A stretch of DNA of 64,000 bases from Streptomyces sp. NBC_00370. Its GTDB lineage: Bacteria > Actinomycetota > Actinomycetes > Streptomycetales > Streptomycetaceae. The notes below the pieces were generated by a model. It did no database searches. It saw only the letters and a list, made by a program, of their open reading frames with translations, and was not told the origin of the DNA. The DNA is taken from the NCBI RefSeq assembly GCF_036084755.1, contig NZ_CP107968.1, positions 2,486,501 to 2,550,500 on the forward strand, in the 5' to 3' direction. Both the position numbers and the translations under genes were made by a program. Positions 1 to 61,977 of the stretch are shown here, piece after piece; positions within the stretch are counted from its first letter, which is position 1; every line of letters begins with the position of its first letter.

Positions 1-1419
1 GTCGTGCCAGGCGGAGATGCCGCACTCCTCGCCGTAGCGGTACGCGGCTTCGTGGTCGCCCTGGAGCGCGAGGACGATGCCGAGCGCCCACAGGGCGCGG
101 GTGTGGTCGGGGCCCGGCGCGTCATGGGCGTCGACGGCGCGTTCCAGGAAGTTGCGGGCCTCGTGCAGATGGCCGCAGCAGCTCCAGAACAGCCCGGCGC
201 GGCCCGCCATTTCCACGGCGGTCGCCGGGTCGCTGCGCAGCAGGTGCTCGATCGCGGCGCACAGGTCGGCGTGCGTGTCGGCGACCCGGCGGTACCAGGC
301 GACCTGGCGCGGGCCCAGCCAGCCCGCGTACGCCTGCCGGGTCAGCTCGGCGAAGTGCGCCGCGTGCCGGTCGGCGATGAGCCGTTCCTCGCCGAGTTCG
401 GCGAGCCACATGGCGCCGTACTCGCGCAGCGTGTCCAGCATCCGGTAGCGGCTGCCGTCCTGCCGGAGCACGGACTGGGCGACGAGTCCGGCGAGCGCCG
501 CCGGGATGTCGGCGGCGGCGAGCGGACCGCCCGTACAGACGGCGACGGCGTCCTCGGGGTCGATCTGGCCCCGGAAGACGGAGAGCCTGGCCCAGAGCAG
601 GCGTTCGAGGGGCGCGCAGAGTTCGTGGCTCCAGCCGATGGCCGTGCGCAGGGCGCGGTGCCGCTGGGGCCAGACGTTCTTGTCGGTGAGGATGTCGAAC
701 CGGGAGGTGAGCCGGGCGGCGATCTGTTCGACGCTGCTGTCGCCGAGCCGGGCGCAGGCGAGTTCGACGGCGAGCGGGATGCCTTCGAGTCTGCGGCAGA
801 TCTCGGCGGCGGCGCCTGCCGTGCGCGGGTCGTCGAGGCTGAGCTGCGGTGCGATACGCCCGGCCCGGTCGCGGAAGAGCTGGAGGGCGTCCTCGTCGCC
901 GTCCAGCGGGAGCGGCGTGACGTCGATGCGGTGTTCGTCCGTGGCGCCGAGCGGATGTCTGCTGGTGGCGAGGACGGTGAGGCCGGGGGCCGCGGTGAGC
1001 AGTTCGCCGACGAGATGGCGGCAGGCGTCCACGAGCCGTTCGCAGCAGTCGAGGACGAGCAGCAGCTTTCTGTTCGCGAGCCATTCGCAGAGCGCCTCGA
1101 CGGGGCTGCGCGTGGTGTGGTCGAGGAGTCCGACGGCCTCGGAGACGGTGGAGAGCAGCAGCCGCTCGTCGTAGAGCGGCGAGAGGTCGACCCAGGCGAC
1201 TGCGTCGGGGCGCCGCTCGACCGCCGTACGGGCAGCGCGCAGGGCGAGCCGGCTCTTGCCGACGCCACCGCTGCCGATCAGGGTGATCAGCCGGTGCTTC
1301 TCGATCGATGCTTCCAGGACGGCCAGTTCTGTCCTGCGCCCCACGAAGCTGGTCGTCTCATGCGGAAGGTTTCCCACCACGGCACACAGTTTGGCGTAGT
1401 TGTCGCTCGCTGTCGGCAC
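1..1419 (-). CDS. AfsR/LuxR-type ATPase regulator, 3' end cut by window
   Basis: Large STAND/AAA ATPase transcription regulator; only the N-terminal 473 residues are inside the window and the frame is still open at base 1. The start is a GTG at 1419, directly downstream of an in-frame stop. A 'TSFVGRRTEL' segment opens the ATPase domain, followed by a Walker A motif GSGGVGKS near residue 45, a Walker B-like 'LLLVLDCCE', the 'LATSR' motif and the 'EICRRLEGIPLAVELA' block typical of the AfsR/MalT-like ATPase core. The last part has the helical repeat character of a TPR region (e.g. 'ALWALGIVLALQGDHEAAYRYGEE'). No N-terminal winged helix is present, so any DNA-binding domain would be at the missing C-terminus (LuxR-type HTH), or the protein works through a partner. 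Target genes are unknown. Confidence 0.85.
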   Translation of the reverse strand, partial: MPTASDNYAKLCAVVGNLPHETTSFVGRRTELAVLEASIEKHRLITLIGSGGVGKSRLALRAARTAVERRPDAVAWVDLSPLYDERLLLSTVSEAVGLLDHTTRSPVEALCEWLANRKLLLVLDCCERLVDACRHLVGELLTAAPGLTVLATSRHPLGATDEHRIDVTPLPLDGDEDALQLFRDRAGRIAPQLSLDDPRTAGAAAEICRRLEGIPLAVELACARLGDSSVEQIAARLTSRFDILTDKNVWPQRHRALRTAIGWSHELCAPLERLLWARLSVFRGQIDPEDAVAVCTGGPLAAADIPAALAGLVAQSVLRQDGSRYRMLDTLREYGAMWLAELGEERLIADRHAAHFAELTRQAYAGWLGPRQVAWYRRVADTHADLCAAIEHLLRSDPATAVEMAGRAGLFWSCCGHLHEARNFLERAVDAHDAPGPDHTRALWALGIVLALQGDHEAAYRYGEECGISAWHD

Positions 1420-3279: not shown

Positions 3280-4173
3280 ATGGGTGAAACGACCATGCAA
3301 TCGCAGGAAGGCCGAACGGCTGCCACGTCACCCACGAAGGACGAGGAAGCCGAGGCGTCAGAAGTGACAGAACCGCAGGCCACGGCGGCTCGCCGGAGCT
3401 GGATCCAGCGGGCGAGAACGCCCCGCCACCCACGGATCTGGTTCGAGATCCTGCTGATCGGCGTCAGTTACTGGGTGTATTCACTGATCCGGAACGCGGT
3501 CCCCGAACAGCGCGTCAAAGCGTTGCACAACGCGAACTGGATTTGGCATACCGAACATACTTTGGGAATTGCGTTCGAACAGTCGGTCAATCACGCCTTG
3601 AATTCTGTGACCTGGCTTATTGTAGGCATGAACTACTACTACGCAACTCTCCACTTCATTGTCACCATCGGTGTGCTCATCTGGTTGTACCGCCGTCATC
3701 CGGGCCGTTATGCCGCCGCCCGGCTCGCCCTCTTCGCGACCACCGTGGTGGCCCTGCTCGGTTACTACCTGTATCCACTGGCGCCGCCCCGGCTGATGAC
3801 GCACACCCACTTCATCGACACGGTCGCCGTGCACCAGACCTGGGGCTCGATGTCCGCCGGCAGCCTCAAGCAGGTGTCGAACCAGTACGCGGCCATGCCG
3901 TCGATGCACATCGGCTGGTCGCTGTGGTGCGGGATCACCATCTTCGCGCTGGCCAAGACGCCGTGGGCGCGGATCCTGGGCCTGCTCTACCCGTGTGTCA
4001 CGCTGCTGGTCATCGTCTCCACCGCGAACCACTTCGTGCTGGACGCGGTCGGCGGGGCGCTGTGCCTGGCCTTCGGGTACGCCGTGTCGTACGCCTGGTA
4101 CCGGCGGCTGCCGTACCAACTGCCCAGGCTCCCGGCGGCAGACGAGAAGCAGCGGGCGTCCGTCGGCTCCTGA
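3280..4173 (+). CDS. PAP2-superfamily membrane protein
   Basis: Integral membrane protein of 297 residues with about six hydrophobic segments after a charged N-terminal tail of roughly 60 residues. The phosphatase/transferase signatures of the PAP2 superfamily are present: 'AAMPSMHIGWS' (about residue 205) and 'TANHFVLDAVGG' (about 245), carrying the conserved His and Asp. 'YPLAPPRLM' fits the inositolphosphotransferase-like (PAP2_3, Aur1-related) branch, which moves or removes phosphoryl head groups at the membrane surface. Two starts are possible: ATG 3280 and ATG 3295; neither has a strong ribosome binding site, so a leaderless or short-leader message is likely. It is divergent from the alpha-glucosidase gene. 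Substrate unknown. Confidence 0.85.
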   Translation: MGETTMQSQEGRTAATSPTKDEEAEASEVTEPQATAARRSWIQRARTPRHPRIWFEILLIGVSYWVYSLIRNAVPEQRVKALHNANWIWHTEHTLGIAFEQSVNHALNSVTWLIVGMNYYYATLHFIVTIGVLIWLYRRHPGRYAAARLALFATTVVALLGYYLYPLAPPRLMTHTHFIDTVAVHQTWGSMSAGSLKQVSNQYAAMPSMHIGWSLWCGITIFALAKTPWARILGLLYPCVTLLVIVSTANHFVLDAVGGALCLAFGYAVSYAWYRRLPYQLPRLPAADEKQRASVGS

Positions 4174-4227
4174 GGGGCGGGGCGGTCCTGAAGGCCGCGG
4201 CGGCCCGGCCCTGTCGCGCGGCGCCCG

Positions 4228-7200
4228 CTACGTCGCGTCGTAGAACAGCTCCTCCATCACGGCGCGCGCCCTGCGCGTCGTACGGCGGTAGTCCTCCAGC
4301 ATGTCGCCGATGTGGCCGGGCCCGTAGCCCAGGTAGCGGCCCATCGCGCCCAGTTCACGGCCGTCCGAGGGAAACGTGTCGCCCGGCCTGCCCCGTACCA
4401 GCATCACGCCGTTGCGCACCCGCGTCGCCAGCACCCACGCCTCGTCCAGCGTCCGTGCCTCCTCCTCGCCGAGCAGCCCCGCCTCGCGCGCGGCGGCGAG
4501 CGCGGCGCGGGTGCGGGTGGTCCGCAGCCCCGGCACCGCCCAGGCGTGCCGCATCTGGATCAGCTGGACCGTCCACTCGACGTCGGAGAGTCCGCCCCGG
4601 CCGAGCTTGGTGTGCAGGGTCGGGTCGGCGCCGCGCGGCATCCGTTCCGTCTCCATCCGCGCCTTGAGCCGGCGGATCTCCCGTACCGCGTCCTCGCCGA
4701 GGCCTTCGACGGGGTAGCGCAGCGGGTCGACCAGCTCGATGAACCGCCGTCCCAGGTCCGGGTCGCCCGCCATCGGCTCGGCGCGCAGCAGGGCCTGGCT
4801 CTCCCAGCCGAGCGACCAGCGGCGGTAGTACGCGGCGTAGGAGGCGAGCGTACGGACCAGCGGGCCGCTCTTGCCCTCGGGGCGCAGATCGGCGTCGATC
4901 ATCAGCGGCGGGTCGGCCGTGGGGATCTGCAGCAGCCTGCGCATCTCGGCGACGACGGTGTTGGCGGCGCGGGCCGCCTCCGGCTCGTCCACGCCTTCCC
5001 GTGGCTCATGCACGAAGAGCACGTCCGCGTCGGAGCCGTACGCCAGCTCGTGGCCGCCGAAGCGGCCCATGCCGATGACGCTGAAGCGGGTGGGCAGGGT
5101 GTCGCCCCACTCGGCCCGTACGGCGGCGCGCAGGGCGCCGGCGAGGGTGGCCGCGTTCAGATCGGTGAGGGCGTTGCCGACGCGGTCGACCAGGGCGCCG
5201 GGGTCCTCCTCCGCCGGGCTGTCCTCCGTACCGTACGAGCCGATGAGGTCGGCGGCGGCCGTACGGAACAGCTCCCGCCTGCGTACGCCGCGCGCCGACG
5301 CGACAGCGCCTTCGGCGGTGTCCGCCCGGCCGACCGCCGCGACGATCTCCTGCTCAAGGCCCGCGCGGGCGCGCGGCTCAAGACCGTGCGGGTCGCCGAG
5401 GATCGCGACCGCCTCGGGGGCCCGCAGCAGCAGGTCGGGGGCGAGCCGCCCGGCCGACAGGACACGCGCCAGATTCTCCGCCGCCGCGCCCTCGTCCCGC
5501 AGCAGCCGCAGGTACCAGGGCGTCTTGCCCAGGGCGTCGGAGACCTTGCGGAAGCCCAGCAGCCCGGCGTCCGGGTCGGCGGAGTCGGCGAACCAGCCGA
5601 GCAGCACCGGCAGCAGCGTCCGCTGGATGGCCGCCTTGCGGCTCACGCCCGACGACAGCGCCTCCAGATGCCGCAGCGCGGCCACCGGGTCGGCGTAGCC
5701 GAGCGCTTCGAGCCGCTGCCCCGCCGCCTTCGCGCTGAGCCGGATCTCACCGGGGGCGAGCTGGGCGACCGCGTCGAGCAGCGGCCGGTAGAACAGCTTC
5801 TCGTGCAGTCGGCGCACCACCGAGGCGTGCCGCTTCCACGCCTTGTTCAGCTCGGCGACGGGATCGCCGCGCAGGCCGAGGGAGCGGCCGAGCCTGCGCA
5901 GATCGGCCTCGCCCTCGGGCACCAGATGGGTGCGGCGCAGCCGGAACAGCTGGATGCGGTGCTCCATGGTGCGCAGGAAGCGGTACGCCTCGTCGAGTTG
6001 GGCGGCGTCGGCCCTGCCGACGTATCCGCCCGCGGCGAGCGCCGCCAGCGCTTCGAGCGTCGAACTGCGGCGCAGCGAGGAGTCGTTGCGGCCGTGCACC
6101 AACTGCAGGAGCTGTACGGCGAATTCGACGTCCCGCAGGCCGCCGGGCCCGAGCTTCAGCTCACGCTCGACCTGCCCGGCCGGGATGTTGTCGACGACCC
6201 TGCGGCGCATCTGCTGCACGTCGGGCACGAAGTGGTCGCGCTCGGCCGCCTGCCACACGAGCGGGGCGAGCGCGTCGATGTACGCGGCGCCGAGCGCCGC
6301 GTCCCCGGCCACCGGACGTGCCTTGAGCAGCGCCTGGAACTCCCAGGTCTTGGCCCAGCGCTGGTAGTAGGCGAGATGGCTGCTGAGCGTGCGGACGAGC
6401 GGCCCGTTGCGGCCCTCGGGCCGCAGATTCGCGTCGACGGGCCAGATGGTCCCCTCGGCGTTCGTCTCGGAGCAGATCCGCATGAGGTGCGACGCGAGCC
6501 GGGTGGCCGCCTGGACGGCCTTGCCCTCGTCGGCGTCCTCGGGAGCGCCCTCGGGGAGGTCGCCGACGAAGATCACGTCCACGTCGGAGACGTAGTTCAG
6601 CTCGTGGCCACCGCACTTGCCCATCGCGACGACGGCCAGCCGGCAGGCCGCCGCGTCCTCCGGTGCGGCGGCGCAGGCCATCGTGAGCGCGGCGCGCAGG
6701 GTGGCGGTGGCGAGGTCGGCCAGCTCGGCCGCCGCCTGGGCCACGTCCGTCGTACCGCAGACGTCCCTGGCGGCGATGGCGAGCAGGCAGCGGCGGTAGG
6801 CGACCCGCAGCGACACGGGGTCGGTGGCGTCGGCCAGGCCGCGCTCGAACTCGGCGACACCGGGGTGCAGGTCGGCCGACTCGTAGGTGACCAGGACGCG
6901 CCAGTCCGCCGGGTGCCTGGCCAGATGGTCGCCGAGCGCCTCGGACGCCCCGAGCACGCCGAGCAGCCGGTCCCGCAGCGGCTTGGCCGTGACCAGCGTG
7001 TCCAGCAGGACGTTGCGCTCCTTCGGCTCCTGCGCCTCGGCCAGCCGGACGAGACCGCGCAGCGCCAGATCGGGGTCGGCGGTGGCGCCGAGTGCGTCGA
7101 GGAGCAGCGGATCGGACCGTATGGCGGACATCTCGGGGGTGTCGAGGAACCGCTCGGCGGTGGAGGGATCGGTGAAGCCGTGCCGCAGCAGACGGGTGAA

Positions 7201-57907: not shown

Positions 57908-58798
57908 ATGACGGAACATCCAGTAGCCGACGCGACTGACGGCCCCGAGATCCTTCGCTACACCGCCTTCTCCAGCACCCCGGAGGGCGGCAACCGGGCG
58001 GGCGTCGTCCTCGACGCCACCGGCCTTGACGACGGACGGATGCTGGCGATCGCCGCCGAGCTGGGCTACAGCGAGTCGGCGTTCCTGACGCCGCCCCCGG
58101 CAGGACTCGGCGAGCCCAGCAGGGCGTTCACCATCAGGTACTTCAGCCCGAAGGCCGAGGTGCCCTTCTGCGGTCACGCGACGGTCGCGACGGCCCTCGC
58201 CCTGGCGGAGCGGACAGGCCCCGGCGACCTGGTGTTCGCGACGCAGGCGGGCACCGTACCTGTGACGGTCACGGAGACCGACGGCGCGCTGCGGGCGACG
58301 CTCACCAGCGTGGAGCCGCATGTCGAGGCCGCGCCCGACGAGGACGTACGGGAAGCCCTGGCCGCGCTCAACTGGCCCGCCACGGACCTCGATCCGGACC
58401 TGCCGCCGCGTATCGCCTTCGCGGGAGCCCGCCACCTGGTGCTGGCGGCGGCGACCCGCGCACGGCTGGCGGACCTCTCGTACGACTTCGACCGGCTGGC
58501 GGCGCTGATGCACCGCCGGGACCTGACCACGGTCCAACTGGTCTGGCGCGCATCGGAGTCGGTGTTCCACGTCCGCGACCCCTTCCCGGTCGGGGGCGTG
58601 GTCGAGGACGCGGCGACGGGCGCGGCCGCTGCGGCGTTCGGCGCGTACGCCCGCGAACTGGGCGCCGTACCGGCCGACGCGGTCCTCACCCTGCACCAGG
58701 GCGAGGACATGGGCCGGCCGGGGGTACTGACGGTGGAGCTACGGGCGGGCGACGCGCGGGTACGGGTGAGCGGCGCGGGAACCGCGATCAAGGAGTAG
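57908..58798 (+). CDS. PhzF-family protein, full length
   Basis: A 296-residue PhzF-fold protein. 'LRYTAFSSTPEGGNRAGVVL' and 'AAELGYSESAFLT' start domain 1 (catalytic Glu of 'YSESAF'), 'VPFCGHATVATALAL' is the GHAT motif, and 'VVEDAATGAAAAAFGAYARE' with 'LHQGEDMGRPG' lie in domain 2. The family covers isomerases and epimerases of aromatic or amino-acid-like substrates. No sequence here decides which. ATG 57908 is 41 bp after the SDR stop. The 3' end overlaps a convergent membrane-protein gene by 11 bp. Confidence 0.9.
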   Translation: MTEHPVADATDGPEILRYTAFSSTPEGGNRAGVVLDATGLDDGRMLAIAAELGYSESAFLTPPPAGLGEPSRAFTIRYFSPKAEVPFCGHATVATALALAERTGPGDLVFATQAGTVPVTVTETDGALRATLTSVEPHVEAAPDEDVREALAALNWPATDLDPDLPPRIAFAGARHLVLAAATRARLADLSYDFDRLAALMHRRDLTTVQLVWRASESVFHVRDPFPVGGVVEDAATGAAAAAFGAYARELGAVPADAVLTLHQGEDMGRPGVLTVELRAGDARVRVSGAGTAIKE

Positions 58799-59348
58799 CT
58801 GTCCTGAGCTGGCTCTCGACCCGGTCGATCCGGCGCAGGGCGCGCCGGTTCATCCACACCAGCCAGCCGAGGAACAGGACGCCGAAGGCCGCCATCACAC
58901 CGCCGCGTACGTACTCGCCGACGGCGAACCAGAACGCGGACCCGCCGAAGACCATCACGGCAAGCAGCGGAAACGCCCACCCCCGCGCCCGCGTCAGCTT
59001 CTCCCGCCGCCGCCGCGCGAGCCGGGCCATGGCCTGCCGCTCGGCGGGGTCGTCGGGGATGTCCCCCTTCATGATGCGCCGGTCGAGCGCGGGCACGGCG
59101 GCCGAGTCGACCCCGACGGACCCGGCGTCGGCCCGGCGCCGCCGGACGATCCACCAGGACATCCACCCGGCGTAGACGACGCCACCGATCACGGCCCCGG
59201 GCCAGGCATCAAGCCCGGAGAACGCCAACCGCAACCCCACCCAGAGCACCAGCGCGACGCTGGCGAACACCCACCACCGATCCCGCCGGGGCTGCTTCCC
59301 CTGCGTATCCGTCTGCGCGCTCCCCTGCTCGACCCTCGCGTAGCCCAC
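58788..59348 (-). CDS. Four-helix membrane protein of unknown function
   Basis: A 186-residue protein with two pairs of hydrophobic helices: 'WWVFASVALVLWVGLRLAF' and 'AVIGGVVYAGWMSWWIV' near the N-terminus, then 'FPLLAVMVFGGSAFWFAV' and 'GGVMAAFGVLFLGWLVWM', joined by a basic loop 'RQAMARLARRRREKLTRARG'. No family recognised. It starts at GTG 59348. It is the last gene before the repeat-rich gene-free stretch. Confidence 0.75.
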   Translation of the reverse strand: MGYARVEQGSAQTDTQGKQPRRDRWWVFASVALVLWVGLRLAFSGLDAWPGAVIGGVVYAGWMSWWIVRRRRADAGSVGVDSAAVPALDRRIMKGDIPDDPAERQAMARLARRRREKLTRARGWAFPLLAVMVFGGSAFWFAVGEYVRGGVMAAFGVLFLGWLVWMNRRALRRIDRVESQLRTATP

Positions 59349-59439
59349 AACGCCACCCCCTGGTCCGTAACGCCCCTGCTGTGCGGTCGCGTTGCGAGTA
59401 CCCGGGGATGGATGCCCGATGCGGCCGGCGCAGGAACGG

Positions 59440-59567
59440 GCTCGTGGTGCCGGGTGCCGGGTGCCGGGTGGCAGGCGGCACGCGGCACGCGGCAGTGGCG
59501 TGGGGCGACTCGGGTTGGCTCGGCGTCCAGCCCGGGGGGTGGTCGGTTGTGACTCATGCCCCGCTGA
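59440..59567 (+). repeat. Long unit, outer left copy
   Basis: Starts CTCGTGGTGCCGGGTG and ends GACTCATGCCCCGCTG; a direct repeat of the unit at 59809-59930. Inverted relatives lie at 60770-60892 and 61100-61202. The copy also contains a short internal GGGTGCC duplication. Confidence 0.8.
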
Positions 59568-59685
59568 TCACTCTGGGGCGGCGGGTGCGGGTCAGGGCGG
59601 CATGAGCCGGGAGCTGGGCGGGCCCGGAAGTTAGCCGAACCGAGGGCCGCCCCTGAGGTTTGAGTGTCGCGGTTACGGTCCGGGC

Positions 59686-59744
59686 GTCAAGGGCGCTCCT
59701 ACGTCGCGTCGGCTGCGCCGATTGCGCTGCGCTTAACCCTTGAC
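59686..59744. repeat. 59-bp palindrome, left copy
   Basis: Ends GTCAAGGG and CCCTTGAC, enclosing a GC-rich partly self-complementary middle (GTCGCGTCGGCTGCGCCGAT). The second copy, also 59 bp, is at 60960-61018 in inverted order. No T-run, but could fold as a hairpin in RNA. Confidence 0.8.
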
Positions 59745-59808
59745 CCCCGGCCCTCCACCGCAAGGGAAGGCTGGGGGGGCGGCCGGGGAGCTCCACGGAG
59801 GCGCTGGG

Positions 59809-59930
59809 TTCGTGGTGGCGGGTGCTTGGCCGACTGGCAGGTGCCACGCACCAGTTGCATGGGGCGACTCGGGCCGTCTCGGCGTCCACCCCCACCGGGT
59901 AGCAGTTGCGACTCATGCCCCGCTGGTCAC
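59809..59930 (+). repeat. Long unit, inner left copy
   Basis: Starts TTCGTGGTGGCGGGTG and runs to CCCCGCTGGTCAC. Direct repeat of 59440-59567, inverted copy at 60770-60892. Confidence 0.85.
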
Positions 59931-60053
59931 TGGGGGTGGGTGTACGGCGGGAGGGTGCCTCGCCTTGGGTTGTGGGCCGGGCATCGGGCCGGTGGATGGG
60001 GCGGGTGTGACTGGGGTGACGGGGGATGGTTGGTGGGACGGCCATCCGGCACC

Positions 60054-60080
60054 TTTTGCGTCCCGTGTTGCGTTAAGCGC
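60054..60080 (+). repeat. GTTGCGTTA box, copy 1
   Basis: TTTTGCGTCCCGTGTTGCGT then TAAGCGC. Related boxes occur at 60174-60200 (plus), 60402-60431 and 60619-60645 (both minus), so two point inward from each side of the centre. Confidence 0.75.
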
Positions 60081-60173
60081 GCCATAGAGCGCGGCGGGCG
60101 GAGGGGTCCTGGGAGGCGGGGTGGGTGTGACTGATGGGGCAGAACTGGACCCGTGGGATGGCGGTCCGGCCTC

Positions 60174-60200
60174 TTATGCGTGGGGAGTTGCATTCCGCGC
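60174..60200 (+). repeat. GTTGCGTTA box, copy 2 (diverged)
   Basis: TTATGCGTGGGGAGTTGCAT then TCCGCGC, a diverged direct repeat of copy 1. Confidence 0.65.
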
Positions 60201-60401
60201 GCTGCGGAGCGCACCCAGGAGGATGGGCCGGTGTCGGGGATCCCCCGGAGTGGAAGTGGGCTACGGCAGGGGGCCGTCGTGGGTTGAGGCGCCAGCCACC
60301 CACGCGAATCGGCTGTCAGACATCCCCACCAGCACACCCCTGCCCTACCAGTCACACCCGCCCCATCGCCTGGCTGTCCCGCCGTTCTGACACGCCCCGC
60401 A

Positions 60402-60431
60402 GCGCATCTAACGCAACCACCCACGCAAAAG
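60402..60431 (-). repeat. GTTGCGTTA box, copy 3 (inverted)
   Basis: Reads CTTTTGCGTGGGTGGTTGCG then TTAGATGCGC on the minus strand; near match to copy 1. Confidence 0.7.
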
Positions 60432-60618
60432 GCACCCGCCGGCGGCCTCACCGGGCACTCGTGTCACATCCGCCCCACCGACGGGCCCGGGTACGGCCCC
60501 TGGACCCACCCGACCCCGCCGAGACCAGGACCGCCGGGCCGATGAACACCCGTCGCCCCACGCCCCGCACGAAACACCCCGCCCGGGGCCATCTCAGCGG
60601 CCTGACACACTCCGTAGT

Positions 60619-60645
60619 GCGCTTAACGCAACACGGGACGCAACA
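60619..60645 (-). repeat. GTTGCGTTA box, copy 4 (inverted)
   Basis: Reads TGTTGCGTCCCGTGTTGCGT then TAAGCGC on the minus strand; the mirror partner of copy 1 and almost identical to it. Confidence 0.78.
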
Positions 60646-60769
60646 GGCGCCGGATGGCCGCCCCACCAACCATCCCCCGTCACCCCAGTCACACCCACCC
60701 CATCCACCGGCCCGATGCCCGGCCCACAACCCAAGGCGAGGCACCCTCCCGCCCCGGACCCACCTCCAG

Positions 60770-60892
60770 TGACCAGCGGGGCATGAGTCTCAGCCGCTAC
60801 CCGGTGGGGGTGGACGCTGAGACGGCCCGAGTCCCCCCATGCAACTGGTGCGTGGCACCCGCCAGTCGGCCAAGCACCCGTCACCACGAGCC
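60770..60892 (-). repeat. Long unit, inner right copy (inverted)
   Basis: Reverse complement of the unit at 59809-59930; includes CATGCAACTGGTGCGTGGCA at 60838, matching TGCCACGCACCAGTTGCATG on the left. Confidence 0.85.
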
Positions 60893-60959
60893 CAGCTCCT
60901 CCGTGGAGCCCCCCCCGGCCGCCCCCCCTCAAAGAAGTACTTGCGGTGGAGGGCCGGGG

Positions 60960-61018
60960 GTCAAGGGTGGAGCGAAGCGCAATCGGCGCAGCCGACGCGA
61001 CGAAGGAGCGCCCTTGAC
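60960..61018. repeat. 59-bp palindrome, right copy
   Basis: Ends GTCAAGGG and CCCTTGAC; mirror copy of 59686-59744 with a few substitutions. Confidence 0.8.
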
Positions 61019-61099
61019 GCCCGGACCGGAGCCGCGACACTCAACAGAAAGGGGCGGCCCTACGGGCGCCTAACTTCCCGGCCCGCACAGGACCCGGCT

Positions 61100-61202
61100 C
61101 AGCCGACCACCCGCCGGGGCGGACGCCGAGACAGCCCGAGTTCCCCACGCAACTGCCGCGCAACACCCGCAGTCGGGCAAGCACCCGCCACCACGAACCC
61201 AG
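61100..61202 (-). repeat. Long unit, outer right copy (inverted)
   Basis: Reverse-complement relative of 59440-59567, shorter by small deletions; ends near CCACGAACCCAGCTCC, the mirror of GGAGCTCC and TTCGTGGTGG on the left. Confidence 0.75.
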
Positions 61203-61272
61203 CTCCCCTCCCCCGCACCCGCCACCCCGAACCGAACCGGCGCATATGCTCACCGCACTCCCGGGCATTAAC

Positions 61273-61812
61273 TCAAGGCTCGGTCAGGCGTTCGCGTAGG
61301 CCTGCTGCCAGTGCGGCGACGGTGAGCAGGTCGACGAGGCCGCCGGCGTGTTCGACGAGACGGCGGTGTTTGACTCCGTTGATGCGAAAGCGCAGGTGGA
61401 CCCGGGTCGTACCGGACGCTTCCGGTGTGAGGGTGATGGTCCAGCTGATGCTGAGCCGGCCACGGGTGGAGCGGTGCACGAGGGCGTGCGGGGCGTCGTG
61501 GATGACGATCTTGAAGGTGGCCTGCCGTCCGCCCCAGTCGTCGATGATGTCGCCGGGTCGGAGGTGTTGCAGGGCGGGTTCGATCTCGCGCAGTGCCCGT
61601 CGTCCCGGCGGGACGGCTCGTTCCAGCCAGGCGGGCATGTACCAACCGGCGCGGTTCTTGCCGAGCTGGTTGAACCACGGCCAGACCTCCTCGGGAGGCG
61701 CCGGCAGGGTGAAGGCACGGTCCATGACCGCGTCCGGGCGGAGAACGAGATCGTCTCCCGGCAGGGCGCGGGACGTCTCGTCGGGGCGGGGGGCGACCGT
61801 GGTGGTGAGCAT
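61273..61812 (-). CDS. SRPBCC (START-like) domain protein
   Basis: A 179-residue protein with the helix-grip fold: 'AVMDRAFTLPAPPEEVWPWF' (strand 1 and helix), 'GGRQATFKIVIHDAPHALVH', 'SWTITLTPEASGTTRVHLRFR' and a long C-terminal helix 'VEHAGGLVDLLTVAALAAGL'. Such proteins bind hydrophobic ligands or act as cyclases. ATG 61812 has 'ggag' upstream. It is divergent from a methyltransferase gene. The long frame extending upstream to 63525 is the antisense of other genes and is not real. Confidence 0.88.
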   Translation of the reverse strand: MLTTTVAPRPDETSRALPGDDLVLRPDAVMDRAFTLPAPPEEVWPWFNQLGKNRAGWYMPAWLERAVPPGRRALREIEPALQHLRPGDIIDDWGGRQATFKIVIHDAPHALVHRSTRGRLSISWTITLTPEASGTTRVHLRFRINGVKHRRLVEHAGGLVDLLTVAALAAGLRERLTEP

Positions 61813-61874
61813 CAGGAACTCCCTCCGACTCAGATCAAGGTTCCGACGTGACAGGAGACCACAAGCGCCCGACC

Positions 61875-61889
61875 GTATCGAATGATACC
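61875..61889. promoter_or_regulatory. Possible operator, GTATCGAATGATACC
   Basis: GTATC-N4-GATAC dyad, A+T-rich for this genome, in the 165-bp space between the divergent SRPBCC and methyltransferase genes. A near copy (GTTTCGAGTGATACC, 13 of 15) lies at 63684 before a MarR gene. Confidence 0.55.
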
Positions 61890-61977
61890 GTCGCGATCGT
61901 AATGGAATCCAGCGCGCCGCTGAACGGACCGGTCGTGCCGTGTTCGTCCGCCGCGCGGTTGACCTGTGAGGTGGTTC

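Follow-up and report, generated by a model that had tools for sequence, protein, structure and literature searches.

REP doublets are inverted repeats that form hairpins (PMC3116915), and REPINs and BIMEs are inverted REP pairs mobilized by RAYT. Another palindromic repeat family, the CGTC-type REPs, lacks a dedicated transposase (PMC3733652), and the words Actinobacteria and Streptomyces are absent from the main text of that survey. In Streptomyces telomeres, the 3' strands fold into clover-leaves whose GNA loops are closed by sheared G:A pairs, and they are bound by Tap (PMC4513846, PMC8743542).

Here we describe a mirrored repeat at positions 59430-61205 of a 64,000-nt window, the whole stretch of DNA analyzed, from Streptomyces sp. 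NBC_00370. Like REPINs and BIMEs it is non-coding and intergenic, has two inverted, hairpin-forming palindromic modules, and has relatives that appear to have spread as whole units. It differs from them in being about ten times larger (0.8-2.7 kb), in having a core of about 75 nt with several small hairpins where they have one short hairpin, and in having long arms of tandem units that are able to enclose a gene. The REPIN arrangement of two palindromes inverted as one unit is found here too, with 71 adjacent core pairs facing inward and none outward among the matches listed, whereas the short REPIN unit with its GTAG foot is not; the ends of our element are GTTGGGGCCGCCC-like. MITEs are likewise non-autonomous and multicopy, with terminal inverted repeats and sharp ends, and both of these terminal features occur in multiple copies of the element (genomes G532, G092 and G305), but the arms are very long and structured, no target-site duplication was evident by eye in the pairs compared and no parent transposon was found among the cores listed. 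Like the CGTC-type REPs, this is a palindromic repeat family with no known mobilizing enzyme, although those are short palindromes. With Streptomyces telomeres and the terminal inverted repeats of linear plasmids the element shares a clover-leaf whose 3' strand bears C(GNA)G loops, these triloop hairpins lying in its core; chromosomal copies, however, are internal and lack a telomere tip at the center, and arms at both replicon ends were found only on the linear plasmid NZ_CP109028.1. Our preferred reading, which we consider reasonably probable, is that the locus is a single copy of a mobile, non-autonomous DNA element of Streptomyces, with the entire inverted repeat of 0.8-2.7 kb as the mobile unit.

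Results

Structure of the mirrored locus

A repeat search of the window paired positions 59785-60099 with 60600-60914 (315 nt, 91% complementary) and 59603-59764 with 60940-61101 (162 nt, 88% complementary), besides smaller mirrored pieces, and blastn merged both blocks into a single 500-nt match of 89% centered near 60350. Arms of such length are not a chance product. The original prediction, made from the letters of the sequence, of a 1.8-kb inverted repeat with imperfect arms thus describes a real feature, and the mirrored blocks that it named do share one dyad near 60350: the AAGTTAG end (59629 and 61072), the 59-bp palindrome (59686-59744 and 60960-61018), the GTGTGACTG and GTTGCGTTA boxes, and the units of about 120 bp. 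GC skew reverses at this center, from about +0.26 to -0.29. The region had also been called gene-free, and no coding-like ORF was found within 59430-61205; the stretch is intergenic, and its neighbors, both on the minus strand and both outside the element, are a gene for a 186-residue predicted membrane protein on the left (58788-59348) and one of about 200 residues, SRPBCC-like by eye, on the right (61273-61890, start approximate).

The left arm (59603-60099, plus strand) consists of a core module and a long unit, and the right arm (60600-61101, minus strand) is its reverse complement. The core hairpin module lies at 59678-59752 on the plus strand and, inverted, at 60952-61026 on the minus strand, each copy containing one of the two palindromes and scoring 93 and 96 bits, respectively, by the covariance model described below. 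Further in, two tandem units of about 120 bp with GTGTGACTG and GTTGCGTTA / GTTGCATTC boxes occupy 59998-60237 (plus strand), and inverted inner units with CAGTCACAC and TAACGCAAC boxes occupy 60324-60711 (minus strand). The whole element extends over 59430-61205, as proposed; its outermost stretches, 59430-59600 and 61100-61205, do not mirror each other cleanly but consist of additional, incomplete long-unit copies. They include, at 59477-59577 (plus strand, 76% to 59836-59936), a diverged copy of a portion of the long unit and, at 61170-61206 (minus strand, 92% to 60863-60899), a partial copy of its end.

The window locus is also present in Streptomyces sp. AcH 505 at 97% identity, so an assembly artifact is disfavored. 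A comparison of arm-arm pairing between the two strains found 47 paired positions lost, 14 unpaired positions that gained pairing, and five positions changed on both sides yet still paired, a balance that argues against selection on the full-length hairpin. Because base-by-base pairing is not strictly kept, full-length arm pairing was rejected as the selected feature.

Related loci in the same genome

Twelve related loci were found on the 8.6-Mb contig, all of them intergenic and confined to the 2.5-4.7 Mb span, in which dnaA lies at 4.325 Mb. Ten of the 11 loci outside the window are mirrored, which makes 11 of the 12 composite inverted repeats, 1.5-2.7 kb in length; the copy beside dgt is one arm only. 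In the common plan, outer units of about 355 bp have forward orientation on the left side and reverse orientation on the right, and several loci have inner units of about 120 bp between them. The genes flanking the 12 loci are unrelated and their orientations mixed, for which reason a transcript terminator between convergent genes was rejected as an explanation. In several copies the arms enclose a single unrelated gene. The passengers in this genome are a TPR protein, an alpha/beta hydrolase, a methyltransferase and a small membrane protein; those in genome G410 are an ankyrin protein, a GNAT acetyltransferase and two unknowns. The intergenic gap at dgt measures 549 bp here versus 232 bp at the orthologous position in genome G044, a difference of about the length of the partial element, which a deletion in G044 would fit equally.

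Distribution in Streptomyces and beyond

BLAST searches with a 497-bp arm segment returned clear matches in 44 of 393 Streptomyces genomes, the best conserved part being the palindrome of about 59 bp, GTCAAGGGCGCTCC...CCACCCTTGAC. With the 11 further loci in this genome, these matches bear out that part of the original prediction which saw a dispersed intergenic element of Streptomyces. A covariance model was built on the 75-nt core and used for a genus-wide search, in which the core was found in 44 of 121 genomes, at one to 40 copies each; in the other 77, several of them closed, it went undetected under strict filters.

To the 71 inward pairs mentioned above can be added 14 more, counted by eye in genomes G197 and G532. 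Wherever a retrieved locus has both cores, the left one is the forward copy and the right one the reverse copy, and nearly all inward pairs examined bound an inverted repeat. Lone cores do occur, as at locus L021 and as the sole match in genome G015.

A class-wide sample outside Streptomyces gave weak matches only, below 50 bits, and phages gave no match to the element. One weak inward core pair with 251-bp inverted arms (74.5%) was seen in a second genus, in an actinomycete of another family (L213, 2194-3007), and a non-Streptomyces genome has three weak core-like palindromes on the same strand, a few kb apart (L207, at 2802, 6784 and 9756). Single cores of 72-78 bits, with no inverted partner within the fetched stretch, lie on a circular Nocardia plasmid (L201, 5004-5077) and in the interior of a linear Streptomyces plasmid (L202, 3993-4067). 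Elements also recur, in several species, in a neighborhood near serC and a gene for an FAD-linked oxidase, not always in the same gap (L115, L123, L129, L138, L141, L146 and L025). The serC neighborhood was considered as a home locus supplying a trans-acting gene, and rejected; by eye, the genes there encode the FAD-linked oxidase, a LysR regulator and a transporter.

A clover-leaf core with a strand bias

The core forms a stem crowned by small hairpins, in the manner of a clover-leaf, and the outer stem, which has an internal loop, reaches about 26 bp. Pairing holds in 87% of the cells, with a covariation score of 0.185 versus 0.046 in shuffles (0 of 500), and the covariation collapses once partners are slid; the stems of the small hairpins swap by changes on both sides. 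Covariation is strong in the core; strict conservation of pairing along the full arms is not seen.

The two strands of the core are not equivalent. Wobble-type cells number 119 (32 genome-position events) when the outward-reading strand is folded versus two (two events) for the inward strand, and the outward strand also carries the purine-rich internal loops. Its hairpin loops are of the type C(GNA)G, with GCA 161 times, GAA 107, GGA 32 and GTA 26. Outward GNA hairpins occur at 1.72 per kb in the arms versus 0.41 in the background, a fourfold difference, but the excess is confined to the core, and the idea that such hairpins run throughout the arms was dropped. Taken together, the strand-biased mispairs and the outward GNA loops indicate that it is the outward strand, on the 3' side of each strand, whose fold of the core is functional or exposed, whether as RNA or as single-stranded DNA.

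Whole elements as the unit of spread

Core-to-core distance is genome-specific, at about 600 bp in G305, 695 bp in G249, 774 bp in G054, and 1310-1385 bp in most copies in G092. Whole elements, asymmetric center included, recur within a genome in both chromosomal orientations. Two copies in G532 are 99.1% identical over 785 bp, and two in G092, in opposite orientation, are 97.8% identical over 1527 bp; both pairs have sharp ends and unrelated flanks, and sharp copy boundaries are seen in G305 as well. That sharply bounded whole units, up to 99.1% identical, occupy unrelated sites in either orientation implies spread as units, and from these sequence comparisons we infer with high confidence that the element is a dispersed unit spreading within genomes. 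Spread is not the only process that the copies suggest. Core segments are mixed in similarity among loci and between left and right arms, being usually nearer to copies at other loci than to the partner arm, and such shuffling means that gene conversion contributes to similarity within a genome. Since some sites lie within gene neighborhoods common to different species, many copies must be old and inherited.

No transposase or autonomous partner was identified for the element, no autonomous transposon sharing its ends was found among the cores listed, and inspection by eye of the few copy pairs compared showed no obvious target-site duplication. Model PF01797 (Y1, the RAYT/IS200-type transposase) has no match in carriers G000, G249, G305, G107, G098 and G408, three carriers having been examined in detail; matches do occur in certain other carriers and in one genome that lacks the element. 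Mobilization by RAYT/IS200 is rejected on current evidence, as the transposase is absent from several carriers. An apparent autonomous IS4-type version in G249 (L116) is a plain insertion into the core palindrome, at 3513-5310, with GCCCTTGACAC repeated on both sides as an apparent target duplication. Inversion of the center by recombination between the arms, considered for G305, was dropped in favor of the simpler account of whole elements in either orientation. At the pirin locus, an empty-site comparison found no conserved neighbor gene.

Element arms at linear-plasmid ends

The linear plasmid NZ_CP109028.1 (132,838 bp) carries the core at 572-648 (minus strand) and at 132179-132247 (plus strand), about 0.6 kb from each end. 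Across the ends the geometry is the inward one of an element, with the cores about 1.2 kb apart, as in an element split at its center. A 776-bp terminal inverted repeat (L199 and L200) comprises the telomere and one arm at each end, the arm lying between telomere and genes, and elements of G092 match the regions 437-697 bp and 434-686 bp from the two ends at 76-80%. A second linear plasmid, NZ_CP108294.1 (338 kb), has a truncated arm, its core cut midway, about 4.1 kb from the right end (L203, 8160-8240). Arms near ends were thus found in two of 72,556 plasmids, one of them degenerate.

This genome's own left telomere has TNC loops on the 5' strand, the same polarity as in the core. It gave no strong core match (best 15.4 bits), and no DNA homology was found between it and the element. 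The left contig end looks like an archetypal telomere short of the very tip (L149, 1-250), and inspection of the right contig end by eye revealed no telomere palindromes (L150).

Discussion

How the element would move can be sketched from its architecture. The mobile unit would consist of a short asymmetric center, or one passenger gene, flanked by long and complex terminal arms that both face inward. One strand would become exposed, the folded core would be recognized by an enzyme supplied in trans, and the unit would be copied or moved; with the mirrored layout, each strand would have a folded end close to its 3' side. For the mobilizing enzyme this candidate mechanism is offered with low confidence. 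Given telomere-like hairpins together with arms at linear-plasmid ends, the element ends may, by analogy, use the replication machinery of linear replicons or derive from it. A broader picture, of a mobile class with telomere-like clover-leaf ends that carries single passengers, multiplies in Streptomyces chromosomes and exchanges ends with linear plasmids, possibly via host telomere replication proteins, strikes us as unlikely.

Of the other readings, a telomeric origin ranks first but is doubtful. The arms would be subtelomeric terminal inverted repeats, and the internal elements would be ends joined tip to tip, or openable into ends, maybe served by Tap and Tpg. The inward cores at both ends of NZ_CP109028.1, the resemblance of G092 elements to its end regions, the truncated arm on the second plasmid, and the GCA, GAA, GGA and GTA loops, which read outward as on telomere 3' strands (PMC8743542, PMC4513846), all agree with it, but the centers of chromosomal elements lack telomere tip sequence, this genome's telomere has no strong core match, the plasmids are only two among so many, and no half-element stands at a chromosome end among the matches listed. 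The two plasmids may be compatible with elements derived from ends, with ends derived from elements, or with neither. That the inverted pairs are kept by host need, as a structural element for chromosome folding or as a replication or recombination site, seems improbable to us. Strict orientation, strong core covariation, and the intergenic placement of all loci here in one span of the contig that includes dnaA fit such a role, against which stand the patchy distribution, with the core undetected in 77 of 121 genomes and copy number ranging from one to 40, and a G532 copy about 37 kb from a contig end; near-identical copies at unrelated sites and genome-specific lengths better fit spread.

Two divergent genes for structured RNAs, both read outward from the center, a possibility to which we give slightly less credence still, would explain the outward-strand wobble pairs and the purine-rich internal loops, both expected of RNA. 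A known Rfam family is ruled out, however, as no covariance model matched with E-values up to 1, no conserved outward promoter or T-tract terminator was seen by eye, and GNA triloops are just as characteristic of telomere hairpins in single-stranded DNA. Last, the original prediction had proposed an old inverted duplication of a dispersed intergenic element. The dispersed element stands, but whole elements at unrelated sites in both orientations argue against a duplication made in place, and the inward pair is itself the unit repeated across the genus, which refutes in-place duplication as a general explanation. For the window locus alone, the inner long-unit stretch is more alike arm to arm (93%) than to other loci (about 86%), as local duplication would predict; yet all adjacent core pairs found face inward, core segments are usually nearer to other loci than to the partner arm, and the same locus exists at 97% in AcH 505, so that an in-place duplication, or an assembly artifact, is highly improbable.

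We return, then, to the non-autonomous mobile element. A family of such elements, with clover-leaf ends and inverted arms of unusual length, is probably new: no description was found in the literature searched, a scope that subscription papers mostly fall outside, and an element with up to 40 core copies per genome seems to have gone undescribed. Streptomyces is a heavily studied, antibiotic-producing genus. The covariance model suffices to annotate the element, and the element's long inverted repeats may account for some breaks in assemblies. In the 1300-contig genome G028, two of the four matches begin at a contig end. With its passengers, the element is a concrete candidate for the movement of small single genes between sites on the Streptomyces chromosome, and it suggests a connection, open to testing, between internal mobile DNA and linear-plasmid ends.
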